64,000 nt of DNA, taken from contig JAFDZP010000002.1 in NCBI GenBank assembly GCA_018266835.1, positions 200,419 to 264,418 of the forward strand, given 5' to 3'. This DNA comes from Bacteroidota bacterium (lineage in GTDB: Bacteria; Bacteroidota; Ignavibacteria; Tepidaquicellales; Tepidaquicellaceae). The notes under the pieces are model-generated. The model was not told the DNA's origin, ran no database searches, and was given only the letters and a program-made list of their open reading frames with translations. Positions within the stretch are counted from its first letter, which is position 1. Each line of letters opens with the position of its first letter. The position numbers were made by a program, and so were the translations under genes. This document shows, piece after piece, positions 43,140 through 48,814 of the stretch.

Positions 43140-43595
43140 ATGGCAGGAAAAGTTACACGCGCAAAAATAACTAAAGCTATTCCCTTCAGCTTTGGAATTT
43201 TACAAAACATTGCAGACGATTTACGTGTCACCCGTTCAGCAGTTTCACGTTTTATAAACCTCCCCGATAACAGTGACCTGAAAGAACTTATCACAGAAGA
43301 GGGAGAAAGAATTTCCGACTACGCAAAAATGAATGTTGCAAGAAATCTTATCACCGGTGATATCGAAGCTGCTAAATGGTTTCTTTCAACTTTTCCGAAA
43401 GGATTAAAAAATCCGCGAAGAAAATACAAATCAAAAAAAGATGACTGGAAGAACCAGCCGCAGATTACTTTTGAGCGCAGCGCTCAAAAACTACGTCAGG
43501 GATTTTATAACAGGCTTATGATTATTGACAGGACGAGAGAAGATATTAACCCAAGGCAGCTGCCGGGGAGGAAAGAAATTATAATCCATGATTAA
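43140..43595 (+). CDS. Small HTH protein, resembling terminase small subunit/phage-type DNA binders
   Basis: 151-aa basic protein. Residues ~18-45 (FGILQNIADDLRVTRSAVSRFI) are a helix-turn-helix of the kind IADxLxVSRxxVxRxI. After it, AKMNVARNLITGDIEAAKWFLSTF recalls the AExNVxKAIxxGDxxAxxxYLK segment of small terminase-like DNA-binding proteins. A Lys/Arg-rich C-terminal tail follows. It stands alone: no phage genes nearby. Either a phage remnant taken over as a regulator or an independent transcription factor. ATG start without Shine-Dalgarno. Confidence 0.6.
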   Translation: MAGKVTRAKITKAIPFSFGILQNIADDLRVTRSAVSRFINLPDNSDLKELITEEGERISDYAKMNVARNLITGDIEAAKWFLSTFPKGLKNPRRKYKSKKDDWKNQPQITFERSAQKLRQGFYNRLMIIDRTREDINPRQLPGRKEIIIHD

Positions 43596-43596
43596 A

Positions 43597-43624
43597 GAAA
43601 TTCCCCCATGTAAGGGGGAATTTC
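43597..43624. terminator. Hairpin between convergent genes
   Basis: Perfect 11-bp stem GAAATTCCCCC (43597-43607) with GGGGGAATTTC (43614-43624), ATGTAA loop, no strong T tract. Probably a shared 3' end for the convergent genes. Confidence 0.55.
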
Positions 43625-43644
43625 GGAAACAGGAATTTATTTTT

Positions 43645-44175
43645 TTAAAGAGGAACAGATAATCCAATAGTTGTATTTACCCAGTTAGCCTTAACGCCGC
43701 CTGTAGTGAATGGATTATGATATTTTACTTTGAGATTAACAATAAGCTTATCGCTGAAGAAACCTTTGCTTACTCCACCGCCAAGATTAATTCCTGCGTA
43801 AGTCTTGCTTTCTAAAACAATTCCGAAAACTTCAGCTTTTAAAGTGTAAGCTCCCAAGCCTGCCTCGCCAAAAAATTTGTATTCTGACTCAGGTTGAAAA
43901 TAATATCTTCCGTTAACAGTAACTTCCCAGAACGTGGCGTTAACATCCCACGTAGCAGCGGCTGTTGCTACAAGAGCATAATTATAATTCAGCCGGTATG
44001 AAGATTCTAAACCAAGATGAACATCGGTAGGACTATCGCCTCCTCCGGAAGTAAATGATGAGATGCCTAAATTCAGTCCTGTATAAAGTTTGTTAATTGT
44101 CTGTGCATTTGAAGAATTTGAAAAGCATACAATAGCGCACAGCACTACTACAAAAAATAGTGAGATTTTTTTCAC
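43645..44175 (-). CDS. Outer-membrane beta-barrel protein (OMP_b-brl-like)
   Basis: 176-aa exported protein: signal peptide (LFFVVVLCAIVCFSNSSNAQ), then alternating strands with Tyr/Phe (YTGLNLGISSFTSGGG, SYRLNYNYALVATAAATW, GRYYFQP, AGINLGGGVSKGF, NLKVKYHNPF, TTIGLSVPL). Size fits an eight-stranded barrel like OmpX/OmpW-type small porins. GTG start (44173-44175). No binding function can be read. Alone between a convergent hairpin and the repeat cluster. Confidence 0.75.
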   Translation of the reverse strand: MKKISLFFVVVLCAIVCFSNSSNAQTINKLYTGLNLGISSFTSGGGDSPTDVHLGLESSYRLNYNYALVATAAATWDVNATFWEVTVNGRYYFQPESEYKFFGEAGLGAYTLKAEVFGIVLESKTYAGINLGGGVSKGFFSDKLIVNLKVKYHNPFTTGGVKANWVNTTIGLSVPL

Positions 44176-44359
44176 GAGAGTTTGTGGTTTGATTTTTTAA
44201 ATGGATGTGGGATATGCGATAGTAATATTGCGATTTGTATGATGAATTACAAATGCAAACAGAGTATAGACTTTAGCGAGTCTAGTGCACTTCATAAGAA
44301 AGCTTGAAGGGATATTAGGTATAGCGTAAAAGCAAGAACTTTCAAAACACGATGTATGT

Positions 44360-44396
44360 CCCCCTCCTTACTAAGGAGGGGGCAGGGGGTGGTTTA
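44360..44396. repeat. GGAGG palindrome upstream of DUF559 gene
   Basis: Arms CCCCCTCCTTA and TAAGGAGGGGG around one base, right flank CAGGGGGTGGTTTAA. Same orientation as the copy at 44911; flank faces the DUF559 gene 39 bases on. Confidence 0.85.
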
Positions 44397-44435
44397 ATGT
44401 GTGCTATGAATTTAGAAAAATTACTAAATTTCTGA

Positions 44436-44804
44436 ATGAAATTATTCAATCAGACAAAATATAAGGAATTCAGAAAAGAATTAAGAAATAATTCTACAGT
44501 TGGGGAACAAGTGTTATGGCAAAAATTAAAGGGAAGCCAGTTTTTAGATTTGAAATTCAGACGACAATACAGTGTAGAAAAATATGTTATAGATTTTTAT
44601 TGTCCTGAACTTAAATTGGGAATTGAAGTTGACGGTGCATCTCATAACAGAGAAACCTCAAAAGAAGATGATGAAGCGAGAACAAGATACTTAAACGCTC
44701 ACGCAGTTAATATTGTTAGATTTAAGGATTACGAGATTATAGAAAATGTTGAAAAGGTATTGCAAATACTGGAAACAAAAGTTATGAAATTGAAGCAAAC
44801 GTAA
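44436..44804 (+). CDS. DUF559 endonuclease-like protein (Vsr fold)
   Basis: 122-aa protein with the complete DUF559 pattern: AEQxLWxxL-type helix (VGEQVLWQKLKG), FRRQYSVEKYVIDFYCPELKLGIEVDG, and VRFKDYEIIENVEKVL. The fold is that of very-short-patch repair / PD-(D/E)xK nucleases; D in VIDFYC and E/D in GIEVDG are the likely metal ligands. Biological role of DUF559 is not established. The gene lies between a full and a truncated GGAGG palindrome, in the densest cluster of that repeat. AT-rich like the next gene. Confidence 0.85.
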   Translation: MKLFNQTKYKEFRKELRNNSTVGEQVLWQKLKGSQFLDLKFRRQYSVEKYVIDFYCPELKLGIEVDGASHNRETSKEDDEARTRYLNAHAVNIVRFKDYEIIENVEKVLQILETKVMKLKQT

Positions 44805-44848
44805 TCGACTCTCCCTCTCACGCTAAAGCGGGACTCGATAATTGAAAG

Positions 44849-44875
44849 CTTACTAAGGAGGGGGCAGGGTTTAAA
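44849..44875. repeat. Truncated GGAGG palindrome after DUF559 gene
   Basis: Right half only: CTTACTAAGGAGGGGG (44849-44864) then CAGGGTTTAAA; same orientation as the copies at 44360 and 44911. Confidence 0.7.
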
Positions 44876-44910
44876 ATAAAATATTATTTGTAAAAAACAC
44901 GTTTGGTGCT

Positions 44911-44957
44911 CCCCCTCCTTACTAAGGAGGGGGCAGGGGGTGGTTTAAGGAATAATT
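44911..44957. repeat. Left 47-bp inverted repeat of the PLD gene
   Basis: GGAGG palindrome (44911-44933), then CAGGGGGTGGTTTAAG and GAATAATT. Matches the reverse complement of 46385-46431 at 45 of 47 positions. TTTGTAAAAAA lies outside (44888-44898) and has a partner outside the right repeat. Confidence 0.85.
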
Positions 44958-45030
44958 TTTTATTCTTACTAATAGGTTATTTTAAAATCTCTAAAAAATA
45001 ATTATATTTTGCAAATTTAATATTACCCCT

Positions 45031-46386
45031 ATGCCATTAATTTATAATTTAAAAGAAGAGTTAGATGTAATTCTACCGAAAGCAACTGATGTAAAGATTG
45101 CAGTTGCTTTAGCTAAATATACAGCTTTCAATAATCTTCGCAATCTTATTAAGCCTTCAATTCCTCAATCTTATATTTTGGGGATAGATTTACCCACAGA
45201 TTATGAAGTATTTGAAACACTTTTTAAGGAAAAAGTAAATTCAAGAGTTTATATTTACACAGATAAGGTATTTCACCCAAAAGTTTATATATTAGAACTT
45301 GGAAAGACCCTAACTGCCTATATATCTTCAGCAAATTTGACTGATGCAGGATTTGTTCGAAATGAAGAAGTTACCTATAAAACAGAAAATGATGAGGAAA
45401 TAAAAAATTTAATAGAGTGGTATAACCAATTATATAATGAATCAAATATTATTGATGAAAATTTCTTAAAGAAATACAAAGAAAGAAACAAAGATAAAAA
45501 AATAGAAGATGCTGAAAACAAAAGAACTTTTTTTATAAATGGTTTAAAAAATGAATTTGGTAAAAGTCATTATAAAGATATGGATGAATATTTAAGAGAA
45601 CAAGAAATAGATATAACTAAGTTTAATTATTCTGACCAATTTTTTAAATTAGAACATTATTTAGCATTTGAAGACCACAAAATTAAAAATGTCAAGTTTA
45701 ACGATGAAAGACATGCAGTAGTTCAAAAGTTTTTAGAACTTCATGAAGCAATTTATAACCAATTCAAATCGTATAGTTTGAATTCTTTAAACGCACATTA
45801 CAAACCTAGATATATTACCTCTTTATTCGATTTTGCTCAAACAGATCCTAGAGCATTAACAAGCATTTGGCTTCATTATGGGAAAAGCAAAAAAGAACTA
45901 GATATGTTTGAAGATCCAAATGAGAAAAGAGAGCTAAGGCGATACAATGACAATAATGAAGATGACCAAGGTTCATTTATCAATCATATTCGCATACAAT
46001 GCTATCTTAGGAAAAACTGTTTTGGTATTTCATTATTTATAGGAAAACCCAATGGAAGTTTATGGGATAGAGATAACTTAAGAAAAATTCTAAAAAATAC
46101 AGAAGATAGAAAAAAGCTATTAGATATTTTGAGAGAATTAAACGGAGATTATTGGATAAATTATTATTGGCCAAATACTGAAGAAAAATACTTATTTATT
46201 CACAAATCGACTGAAGAACAAATAATAAAATTTTTACAGATAGATGATGACGGCTCTTACTTTTCAATTGGAAAAGAATTTAGTCCTGACAATTTTTTGA
46301 TTTCTACGAAAAATATCAGCCAAACAATATTAAAAGAATTTCAATTGCTTTATCCATTATATGAGTTGATAAAGAAAAATATATAA
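45031..46386 (+). CDS. PLD-family nuclease-like protein
   Basis: 451 aa. The N-terminal ~130 residues carry a phospholipase-D-superfamily active site: H82-P-K84 (VFHPKVYIL) followed by SSANLTDAGFVRNEEV (S100, N102, G, N111, E112-113), as in PLD-type restriction endonucleases (BfiI/NgoFVII-like) with one HxK per chain. The remaining ~320 residues are charged and helical with no known domain; they may recognise DNA or a partner. No signal peptide. Visibly AT-richer than neighbouring genes. No DNA methyltransferase or helicase adjoins it, so a restriction role is unproven. Its stop codon (46384-46386) touches the right inverted repeat. ATG start. Confidence 0.7.
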   Translation: MPLIYNLKEELDVILPKATDVKIAVALAKYTAFNNLRNLIKPSIPQSYILGIDLPTDYEVFETLFKEKVNSRVYIYTDKVFHPKVYILELGKTLTAYISSANLTDAGFVRNEEVTYKTENDEEIKNLIEWYNQLYNESNIIDENFLKKYKERNKDKKIEDAENKRTFFINGLKNEFGKSHYKDMDEYLREQEIDITKFNYSDQFFKLEHYLAFEDHKIKNVKFNDERHAVVQKFLELHEAIYNQFKSYSLNSLNAHYKPRYITSLFDFAQTDPRALTSIWLHYGKSKKELDMFEDPNEKRELRRYNDNNEDDQGSFINHIRIQCYLRKNCFGISLFIGKPNGSLWDRDNLRKILKNTEDRKKLLDILRELNGDYWINYYWPNTEEKYLFIHKSTEEQIIKFLQIDDDGSYFSIGKEFSPDNFLISTKNISQTILKEFQLLYPLYELIKKNI

Positions 46387-46431
46387 TTATTCTTTAAACC
46401 ACCCCCTGCCCCCTCCTTATTAAGGAGGGGG
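46385..46431. repeat. Right 47-bp inverted repeat of the PLD gene
   Basis: AATTATTC, then TTTAAACCACCCCCTG and the palindrome arms (CCCCCTCCTTA / TAAGGAGGGGG, ending 46431). Inverted copy of 44911-44957; also unit 1 of the tandem array that follows. Confidence 0.85.
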
Positions 46432-46672
46432 AATACTATTTTTTTTTACAAACAAAGGTTACTAAATAAACCATCCTATCTTTTAATACGGAGGGGAAAT
46501 ACGATATATTCTTTTTACAAACATAATTACTCGTTAAACCACCCCCTACCCCCTCCTTAGTAAGGAGGGGGGACACTATTTTTTATAAACAAAAGATACT
46601 AATTAAAACCACCCTACCTTCTAGTACGGAAAAGGAATTCATATTTTTATTTAATTTATAAATGGTAGAGTA
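46395..46672. repeat. Tandem array of four ~70-bp units (A-B-A-B)
   Basis: Units begin with TAAACC at 46395, 46467, 46535 and TAAAACC at 46604 (periods 72, 68, 69). Units 1 and 3 contain intact GGAGG palindromes; units 2 and 4 share a decayed version (CCTA-CTT-A-TACGGA). The rest of each unit is a T-rich ACAAAC/ATAAAC spacer. The pattern implies duplication of a ~140-bp two-unit block. Confidence 0.75.
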
Positions 46673-46687
46673 TTTATACCCAACAAA

Positions 46688-46724
46688 AAAACCCTTGCAC
46701 TACTCTCTCTGATGCAAGGGTTTT
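46688..46724 (-). terminator. Terminator of the arylsulfotransferase-like gene
   Basis: Twelve-bp stem AAAACCCTTGCA (46688-46699) with TGCAAGGGTTTT (46713-46724); T-run on the minus strand. Confidence 0.88.
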
Positions 46725-46778
46725 ATTAAATTATTAAACGGAAGGTAGAAATTACTTTATAAAAAATGTTCTTTTAAA

Positions 46779-48626
46779 TTATTTAATAAGCATCATTTGT
46801 TTTGTTTGCGTAAATGTATTTGTTTTCAGTTCATAAAAATATATACCTGATGAAAATTCAGAGGCATTCCATTTATATTCATAGCTGCCGGGAGATTTTA
46901 CTTCGTAATCAACCTCTTTTACTTTCTGCCCTATTAAATTATAAATGCTAAGCTTTACATCGGTTAGTGCAGGTATATCAAATTTAATTGTAGTCGAAGG
47001 ATTGAACGGATTCGGATAATTCTGATAAAGACTGAACTTAGACGGCGTTACGCTTTGAAGCGGTTCCTGCACACTCACAGATGCATCGCCAAATCTGTAA
47101 GCGCGGTAACTGCATATTCCATCTGGCAATGTAAGCTCAAAAACTTTTTCCCTGTTAGCATTCACCTCAGTGACAGTAGGATTCGCCGCTCCCCATCCGA
47201 TTATTGTATTACCGTTTGCAAGCCTTTGCGTATATCCCATAGCATAACCGTATGTGGACCTGTTATTAATGTACTGCCAGACTAATTTAGCAGTATGGCG
47301 TGTTTCATCAAGCTGATATTCAGCAGCTCTGGAAAAAAAAGTAGGGTCACTATCAGCATTGGGTTCTCCTGTGGGGTCTCTGGTAAACCGGTAGTTTCCA
47401 TTATCAAAAATCGAAATATTTCCGTTTGCAAGTCTTCTTACTGCATGCTGATAAGAAAATTTTATTGAATCATTTAAAAAAGTAAACTGATTATGCCTCC
47501 CGCCGAATCTCCACATTATTTCCCCGTTGCTTCTGTTTATTTTTGTCAGTTCTTCCTGATGCCTGCTGGATATTATTATATTTCCGTCGTTATCAAGCTC
47601 GATAGCATTCCCGTGCACATAGTCAATCTGATGCGCATAAAGATTTTCATATACAGCATCGGTTATCTCAAAGTTATCCCAGCTTCTCCATTGAAAAATA
47701 ACATTTCTTGCTCTATCCAGTTCCTGTATTACCAGACCTGTAACTATTGCAGCGGAGTCTCCGCCCGCAATAAAATTTCTCATATCTACTAACTGAGGAT
47801 CATAGCTCATTAATAATATGTGATTGCTGTTATCAACCAAACGGAGCTCATGCAGGTCCGTACTGTACCCGTTACCGCAGTAGAAGCTATCTATAATTTC
47901 ATAGTTCGAATTCATTTCAATAAATTTTGCTGCCCGGCTATCATAATACGTCATGTTTCCGTCCGGCTGTTTTTTAAAATCTAAGCAGTTAGAAGGCATC
48001 TCCCTGTAAAATACCGGTTTCCCTGAATTTTCTAAAATCATTAAATAAGGTGTGTTAGCAGTTCCGAATATGGAAAAATTACTAAGGTAAATATATCCCG
48101 GACTTGGCGCATCCGAATTAGAAACTGTTATCTGTGGAAAATCAAGCGGCAATGATGCCGTTCGCCTTGAAGAATTATTGACAGTATTATTACTGATACT
48201 ATACATTATCGACTGTATTCCCATTTCTTTATTAAGCACATCTAATGGTTCAGAGGGTAATGTCTGTTTTTCAGTTTGAAATTTAAAGCTTAGCTCTTCC
48301 GTGAATTTGTTTTTTGTTCCGGATGAAACCTTAACAAATACCGTTTCATCATTAAAGAATTTACTGTCAGGATAAAAAATTGCTGTATATCCGTCATCGC
48401 TTATTCGGGATGAAAATGTATGCTCGCCTGATTTGCTTCCAATAATAGAAACCGATTTTTCATTTAAATAACCGGAAGCAATTTTTTGGCTGAACCTGAT
48501 GGAAACAGATGTAGATGTTTTATTATACTTTGAATCAGGTTTGGGAATGAGTAAAACAGGATTGGAATTCGGTAATGCCGATTGTACAAAGAGAAATAAA
48601 AAAAAGACAAGAGGGACTGCTTTCAT
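46779..48626 (-). CDS. Arylsulfotransferase-family (ASST) protein with T9SS sorting domain
   Basis: 615-aa secreted protein. Signal peptide (LVFFLFLFVQSALP), an Ig-like N-terminal domain (~20-120), then a beta-propeller of the arylsulfate sulfotransferase family: PGYIYLSNFSIFG, STDLHELRLVDNSNHILL, YAHQIDYVHGNAIELDNDGNIIIS, GEIMWRFGG, FSYQHAVRRLANGNISIFDNG. HEL, HGN and QHA His residues are candidate catalytic or substrate-binding positions. The last ~80 residues are a T9SS sorting domain (NYPNPFNPSTTIKFDIP, KQMMLIK). Real sulfotransfer is not proven: many secreted family members are uncharacterised. Own terminator; upstream is a run of phased short repeats. Confidence 0.85.
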   Translation of the reverse strand: MKAVPLVFFLFLFVQSALPNSNPVLLIPKPDSKYNKTSTSVSIRFSQKIASGYLNEKSVSIIGSKSGEHTFSSRISDDGYTAIFYPDSKFFNDETVFVKVSSGTKNKFTEELSFKFQTEKQTLPSEPLDVLNKEMGIQSIMYSISNNTVNNSSRRTASLPLDFPQITVSNSDAPSPGYIYLSNFSIFGTANTPYLMILENSGKPVFYREMPSNCLDFKKQPDGNMTYYDSRAAKFIEMNSNYEIIDSFYCGNGYSTDLHELRLVDNSNHILLMSYDPQLVDMRNFIAGGDSAAIVTGLVIQELDRARNVIFQWRSWDNFEITDAVYENLYAHQIDYVHGNAIELDNDGNIIISSRHQEELTKINRSNGEIMWRFGGRHNQFTFLNDSIKFSYQHAVRRLANGNISIFDNGNYRFTRDPTGEPNADSDPTFFSRAAEYQLDETRHTAKLVWQYINNRSTYGYAMGYTQRLANGNTIIGWGAANPTVTEVNANREKVFELTLPDGICSYRAYRFGDASVSVQEPLQSVTPSKFSLYQNYPNPFNPSTTIKFDIPALTDVKLSIYNLIGQKVKEVDYEVKSPGSYEYKWNASEFSSGIYFYELKTNTFTQTKQMMLIK

Positions 48627-48647
48627 CTCTTTTGATTTTAGTTTTTT

Positions 48648-48708
48648 GGTGAATAACGGTGAATTATTCAGGAATAATGGTGAATTAAACCTTGAATTTG
48701 GTGAATTA
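48648..48708. repeat. Helically phased GGTGAATWA direct repeats
   Basis: GGTGAATAA/GGTGAATTA at 48648, 48658, 48679 and 48700: spacings 10, 21, 21, all multiples of one helical turn. Weaker AATTCA-like copies fill the gaps at the intermediate positions. Lies 22-82 bases upstream of the ASST start codon. Confidence 0.6.
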
Positions 48709-48814
48709 TAGCTTACTTATATTGTTTGAAGTACGACAATCTATTTATTAAATGGTTTAATGGTTTATTAATATATTAGACGGAAAATTTTCGGAGAACT
48801 TACAAGGATAACCC

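Follow-up and report, generated by a model that had tools for sequence, protein, structure and literature searches.

The locus described here raises the question of why a nuclease gene should be closely bracketed by a dispersed palindrome in two inverted copies, and which enzyme could have brought such palindromes into place. Within the window, by which we mean the whole stretch of 64,000 nucleotides that was analysed, the sequence-only reading had pointed to an AT-rich gene of the PLD nuclease family enclosed by inverted 47-bp copies, the right one touching the stop codon. This description is accurate. The two arms match at 45 of 47 bases in their cores (Table 1), form an ungapped inverted repeat of 58 nt at 91% and reach a score of 54.5 when aligned with gaps over their full extent; the right arm runs into the TAA stop codon (46384-46386), and the gene has a GC content of 26.6% against 35.8% for the window. 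Each arm consists of a 23-bp palindrome with a 10-bp stem, followed by an inward-pointing tail CAGGGGGTGGTTTAA.

Table 1. Features of the palindrome-framed PLD locus and its surroundings (window coordinates).
Feature	Coordinates	Strand	Remarks
Palindrome CCCCCTCCTTACTAAGGAGGGGG with inward tail CAGGGGGTGGTTTAA	44361..44400	+	Upstream side of DUF559 gene
DUF559 (PF04480) EDxHD/Vsr-like nuclease, single-domain, 122 aa	44436..44804	+	Pfam E=1.4e-28; proposed palindrome partner
Diverged compound palindrome	44805..44869	-	Downstream of DUF559 gene; by eye like the same-genus DUF559 frame of L091 (..GAGTCCCGCTTTAGCGGGAGAGGGG..)
Left arm of PLD frame	44884..44967 (core 44911-44957)	+	Tail points inward
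PLD-family nuclease gene	45031..46386	+	PLDc_2 / RE_NgoFVII N-terminal domain, single HxK; proposed passenger
Right arm of PLD frame	46375..46455 (core 46385-46431)	-	Overlaps stop codon; tail inward
Degenerate tandem copy of ~70-bp unit	46456..46523	-	Direct reading; repeat families D1, D9
Second intact tandem unit	46524..46593 (palindrome 46549-46571, inward tail)	-	Best relative of right arm, 60.5
Degenerate tandem copy of ~70-bp unit	46594..46663	-	Direct reading; repeat family D3

The weaker TTTGTAAAAAA similarity noted earlier outside both arms is indeed present, but it is no separate terminal repeat, since it forms part of a local tandem unit of ~70 bp. Four of these units stand in tandem to the right of the PLD gene, two intact and two degenerate, while one and a part are found to its left. 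The kinship of the arms was assessed by pairwise comparison among 146 surveyed palindromes. The closest relative of the left arm is the right arm (54.5), ahead of the second right unit (44.5) and a copy beside the neighbouring DUF559 gene (43.5), whereas unrelated palindrome copies reach at most about 42; the right arm is closest to its tandem neighbour (60.5), followed by the left arm. As the similarity of the arms extends beyond the core, they are sister copies and not two independent arrivals, and a chance pair of independent REP insertions around the gene is ruled out on the same ground. With respect to the hallmarks of IS and MITE elements, no transposase ORF was found inside the unit, no direct repeat was seen outside the arms, and no target-site duplication was recovered.

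To compare this arrangement with other genes, we used a framing score, obtained by reverse-complementing the downstream flank of a gene and taking its best local alignment with the upstream flank. The survey comprised 1,230 genes in 1.64 Mb (~41% of the 4.0-Mb genome), in stretches chosen partly because they hold palindromes. The scores have a mean of 12.6 and a 99th percentile of 22.0, and the PLD gene, with 54.5, ranks highest of all; the next two (38 and 33) both belong to DUF559 genes. Ordinary genes are not framed in this manner; equally frequent framing of random genes, which would have spoken against the earlier reading, was not seen. Loose palindrome pairs at gene-size spacing, by contrast, occur in all orientations (++ 5, -- 8, -+ 9, +- 9), and since convergent pairs without arm similarity are as frequent as the others, we attach no significance to them. 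Two further genes of the genome are enclosed by inverted repeats of other types. A PD-(D/E)XK gene (PF13366, GxxExxY-type; L159:1415-1807, G000:C2:1041415-1041807) is framed by inverted AACGCAAAGAGCGCTAAG-type repeats, and CTTTGCGNNCTTTGCG-like matches of this framing repeat number 48 in 1.64 Mb; this is possibly a second nuclease-repeat pairing, known from a single example. A four-helix-bundle gene (S23-like, by eye; G000:C2:540092-540436) is framed by inverted TTATAAAGTTTGTAAGGTTCATAAAG-type repeats, which are also dispersed.

The enclosed gene encodes a protein of 451 aa with PLDc_2 and RE_NgoFVII matches above the Pfam cut-offs and, as proposed earlier, one HxK active site (H82, K84), with N102 and E113 further along. 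With the NgoFVII/BfiI-type restriction endonucleases (PF09565) it shares the single-HxK N-terminal PLD domain (30.2 bits against a cut-off of 23.8), but it differs from them in its C-terminal region (~300 aa), for which no Pfam family matched; no cognate DNA methyltransferase was recognised by eye among the neighbouring ORFs. Weak matches to DrmC/ZacB of defence systems are also seen. The product is perhaps a restriction or defence nuclease; a single-sequence fold (pLDDT 36) was uninformative. More generally, the PLD fold occurs in phosphodiester-transfer nucleases and in a number of site-specific DNA enzymes. The gene is single-copy in the genome, and scans of viral contigs, genome contigs and phages returned no homologue. 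Distant matches are present in three genomes of the phylum, in one of them, a distant member of the class, over the C-terminal region only (29%), and two Burkholderia contaminans plasmids carry a homologue at 23.5%. The earlier reading had proposed to test whether homologues are bracketed by the same repeats: the four examined have framing scores of 11-18 and are unframed, and no second framed PLD gene was found.

The palindrome itself is abundant far beyond the arms, in agreement with the earlier proposal that the unit ends in a dispersed repeat. In the window, the core (up to 3 mismatches) has 12 matches against 0.2 expected, and the core with its tail has 6 against 0.00 expected. The 4.0-Mb genome holds 161 copies (up to 2 mismatches) compared to 5 for a reversed control; 27 copies were counted in the single other genome of the same genus, and as many as 19 elsewhere in the order. 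The palindrome folds, as DNA, into a hairpin of -11.2 kcal/mol, and Rfam gave nothing at gathering score. Its stem is followed by C-AGGGGGTGG, with GTGG several bases off the stem, and no GTAG or GT(A/G)G head was found directly at the stem base. A RAYT was considered as the partner of the palindrome in this genome and rejected, as Y1_Tnp/RAYT (PF01797) has no match in it.

A different nuclease family is found next to the palindromes. Just upstream of the PLD gene lies a DUF559 gene that the sequence-only reading did not mention. The DUF559 domain occupies residues 9-112 of the 122-residue protein, which aligns with PDB 3hrl (E=1.5e-14), and the family profile matches PDB 3r3p, a 'Mobile intron protein' (E=4.6e-7), which we take to be the catalytic domain of I-Bth0305I. 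The conserved residues in A1 are E, D, ExDGxxH and D, and weak matches to phage homing-endonuclease families were also obtained. The genome holds seven DUF559 genes. Five have framing scores above 21 (38, 33, 27.5, 26.5 and 22), the gene in the window has 21 and the remaining one 13. At least six of the seven are delimited by inverted palindromes in the same manner as the PLD gene, largely of their own subfamily, and most of the genes differ from one another in the loop or tail of their flanking palindromes, for example CCTGCGAAGG with AGGGGGAGG at C5:449 kb, CCTTTTTCTAAGG at 403 kb, CCTTTTCAAGG at 457 kb, and CCTTACGAAGG with GAGGGGGCGG at 291 kb. Solo copies of several of these subfamilies occur elsewhere in the genome. 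Outside the DUF559 family, only the PLD gene was found in such a palindrome unit with sister arms.

The association of DUF559 with framing palindromes extends to the relatives, of which 42 among 59 genomes carry DUF559. At least four palindromes are present in 14 of these 42 genomes and in none of the 17 that lack DUF559 (Fisher p=0.006), none of which has more than one. Counting one gene per syntenic locus, which removes shared synteny but only partly shared ancestry, and using control sets of modest size, we found a framing score of at least 20 for 24 of 47 non-syntenic DUF559 genes compared to 2 of 92 control genes from the same loci (Fisher 6e-12). GC-rich stems stand on both sides of 22 of the 47 DUF559 genes and of 3 of the 92 controls (Fisher 8e-10), and of 0 of 150 genes in a separate control set; about half of the DUF559 genes of the relatives have no clear frame. 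The stems vary (CCCCTCC..GGAGGGG, CCCCCTTCTCTT..AAGAGAAGGGGG, CCCTCTCTA..TAGAGAGGG) while complementarity is kept, so the hairpin appears to be conserved. Moreover, the similarity of the framing repeats correlates with that of the DUF559 proteins (rho 0.45, reached in 0 of 2000 permutations, N=24): repeat and protein co-diverge. In several relatives (L069, L070, L075, L080, L082, L084) the DUF559 domain is part of a much longer open frame, about 850-1400 aa in length, and at L024:1000-1120 short tandem arrays (ACTCAATACTCAATACT, TACTAAGTACTAAG) adjoin a framed DUF559 gene.

Outside the phylum, we inspected 16 DUF559 loci from plasmid-collection records. Framing is clear and two-sided in Pseudanabaena (68), Deinococcus psychrotolerans (59.5) and the Alphaproteobacteria Sphingobium (29.5) and Sphingomonas (23), and several others of the 16 have GC-rich palindromes on one or both sides; the examples from E. 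coli, Synechocystis and Novosphingobium show no framing. In Pseudanabaena more copies of the palindrome lie within 40 kb, while in Deinococcus the 40 kb around the gene contain no further palindromes, and in Sphingobium the copies are not above control. As to their location, three DUF559 genes interrupt operons, namely paaD/paaZ in Deinococcus (L232) and, in Sphingomonas, the NAD(P) transhydrogenase subunits (L234) and GatB/YqeY-dnaG (L226).

On these comparative grounds we lean, by a little, towards reading DUF559 as the partner of the palindrome, in a REPtron-like organization in which a homing-type nuclease would take the place of the RAYT and the PLD gene would be a captured passenger. Caulobacter VsrA, a DUF559 protein, is required for the DNA-damage response in a methyltransferase mutant and was proposed to be a Vsr-like nickase (PMC12907096). 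Based on this proposal and on the alignments of DUF559 with 3hrl and 3r3p, we propose that DUF559 proteins may cut their own palindrome. The enzyme would introduce a nick or a break at the hairpin or the inward GGGGGTGGTTTAA tail, and repair templated by a locus that bears a copy would bring palindromes to new intergenic sites. DNA between two inverted palindromes could be copied along likewise, and the PLD gene would be such a passenger, caught between two sister arms; its status as cargo has this one PLD locus as its basis. The scheme would thus combine the architecture of RAYT REPtrons with the logic of free-standing homing endonucleases. More tentatively, and with somewhat less than even confidence, we suggest that EDxHD-type nucleases of the DUF559 family may be the partners, in several phyla, of a widespread class of REP palindromes that have no RAYT, and may spread these repeats together with the genes they enclose by homing-like cut-and-repair.

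The PLD gene could also have been trapped: a horizontally acquired gene may have come to lie in a REP array that expands by tandem and inverted duplication, with local rearrangement producing the frame and no movement of the whole as a unit. The unequal arrays of ~70-bp units on the two sides, the closer kinship of the right arm to its tandem neighbour than to the left arm, the single copy of the gene and the equal frequency of loose pairs in other orientations are all in line with such a history. Yet the two arms adjoin the gene on either side and face inward, just as those of the DUF559 units do, and the frame is the strongest among the 1,230 genes, so we regard trapping as somewhat unlikely, while giving it serious weight.

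Corresponding intervals were compared in related genomes. The earlier reading had proposed to look for empty sites with a single palindrome, and no exact empty site was recovered for a framed unit. In G395, a genome of the same genus, the counterpart of positions 43336-48814 of the window (5.5 kb) measures about 1 kb; it is devoid of the outer-membrane-like gene, DUF559, the PLD gene and the sulfotransferase-like gene, and contains a single core palindrome with a GGGGTGGTTTAA tail. This comparison documents that the interval as a whole was gained or lost, but does not single out the PLD unit. The sulfotransferase-like neighbour (46779-48626) is a secreted protein of an expanded family with up to seven matches per genome; a search for its close orthologue in the same-genus genome gave none, and a DNA search gave the synteny instead. 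In addition, a framed DUF559 unit present in G423 (L097) has no counterpart in the corresponding intergenic interval of G271, G427 or G306. G271 and G427 carry other palindromes in that interval, not at the exact point of the G423 unit; the lone palindrome of G271 is ~0.5 kb away from it and is therefore not an exact empty site. Across the framed DUF559 unit of G423 from the neighbouring gene lies a diverged second copy of that gene's 3' end (L218:1983-2040 and 2905-2960), which may be a trace of an insertion event.

Such lone palindromes in intervals without a unit would also be expected if DUF559 units and other genes inserted preferentially into pre-existing REPs that are spread by something else, and REPs are known to be targeted by some IS elements (PMC1525189). 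We consider this unlikely, because palindrome-rich genomes always bear DUF559, the palindrome type follows the resident DUF559, and the genome at hand has no Y1_Tnp. Less likely still, the palindromes could be under selection as bidirectional terminators, or as insulators, of foreign AT-rich genes with no role in recombination: GC-rich hairpins do lie just past stop codons, and a T-rich run follows closely behind the right palindrome, but this leaves unexplained the dispersed copies, the matching subfamilies on both sides and the co-divergence with DUF559, and ordinary genes have no such arrangement (stems on both sides in the 0/150 and 3/92 of the control sets). The earlier suggestion that the PLD nuclease itself mobilises the palindromes accords with the exact framing of its gene and with the activities found among PLD-fold enzymes, but is largely refuted and very improbable, as none of the 43 other genomes searched in the order has the gene, many of them carrying the palindromes, so that it cannot be the general mobiliser, its homologues elsewhere are unframed, and six DUF559 genes are similarly framed in the absence of any PLD gene.

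A common, compact and unassigned nuclease family whose genes are enclosed by such palindromes is a directly testable candidate for their partner. If palindrome pairs do carry passengers like the PLD gene, they would constitute a small, overlooked vehicle of gene gain, possibly for defence genes. A literature search, with most subscription journals outside its scope, returned no paper linking DUF559 to palindromic repeats, and the framing of the PLD and DUF559 genes hints at an undescribed way of spreading short repeats and enclosed genes.

Among known systems, Caulobacter VsrA (PMC12907096) shares the DUF559 domain; the role proposed for it is in mismatch repair, and no palindrome or repeat is mentioned, so our model offers DUF559 proteins a second role besides Vsr-type repair. 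The EDxHD (Vsr-like) homing endonuclease family, which includes I-Bth0305I (PMC3943268), has in common with DUF559 the Vsr-like nuclease core with conserved acidic residues and a histidine, whereas DUF559 is a single domain with no DNA-binding extension, no intron and a palindromic frame. CGTC-tagged REPs, said to 'lack a dedicated transposase' (PMC3733652), are likewise dispersed REPs without a RAYT, but here a CCA tail is found and no CGTC tag. A parallel in architecture is provided by the REPtrons, in which a pair of inverted REPs invariably encloses the RAYT gene (TnpA-REP, Y1/HUH) (PMC2817692, PMC3733652). Both arrangements place the gene of a small DNA-cutting enzyme between inverted palindromes, both have many solo, paired and clustered copies, and in both the repeat subfamilies differ by enzyme copy. 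The enzyme here, however, is EDxHD/Vsr-like in a genome devoid of PF01797, its palindromes have no direct GTAG or GT(A/G)G head, and one unit holds a PLD nuclease gene instead.
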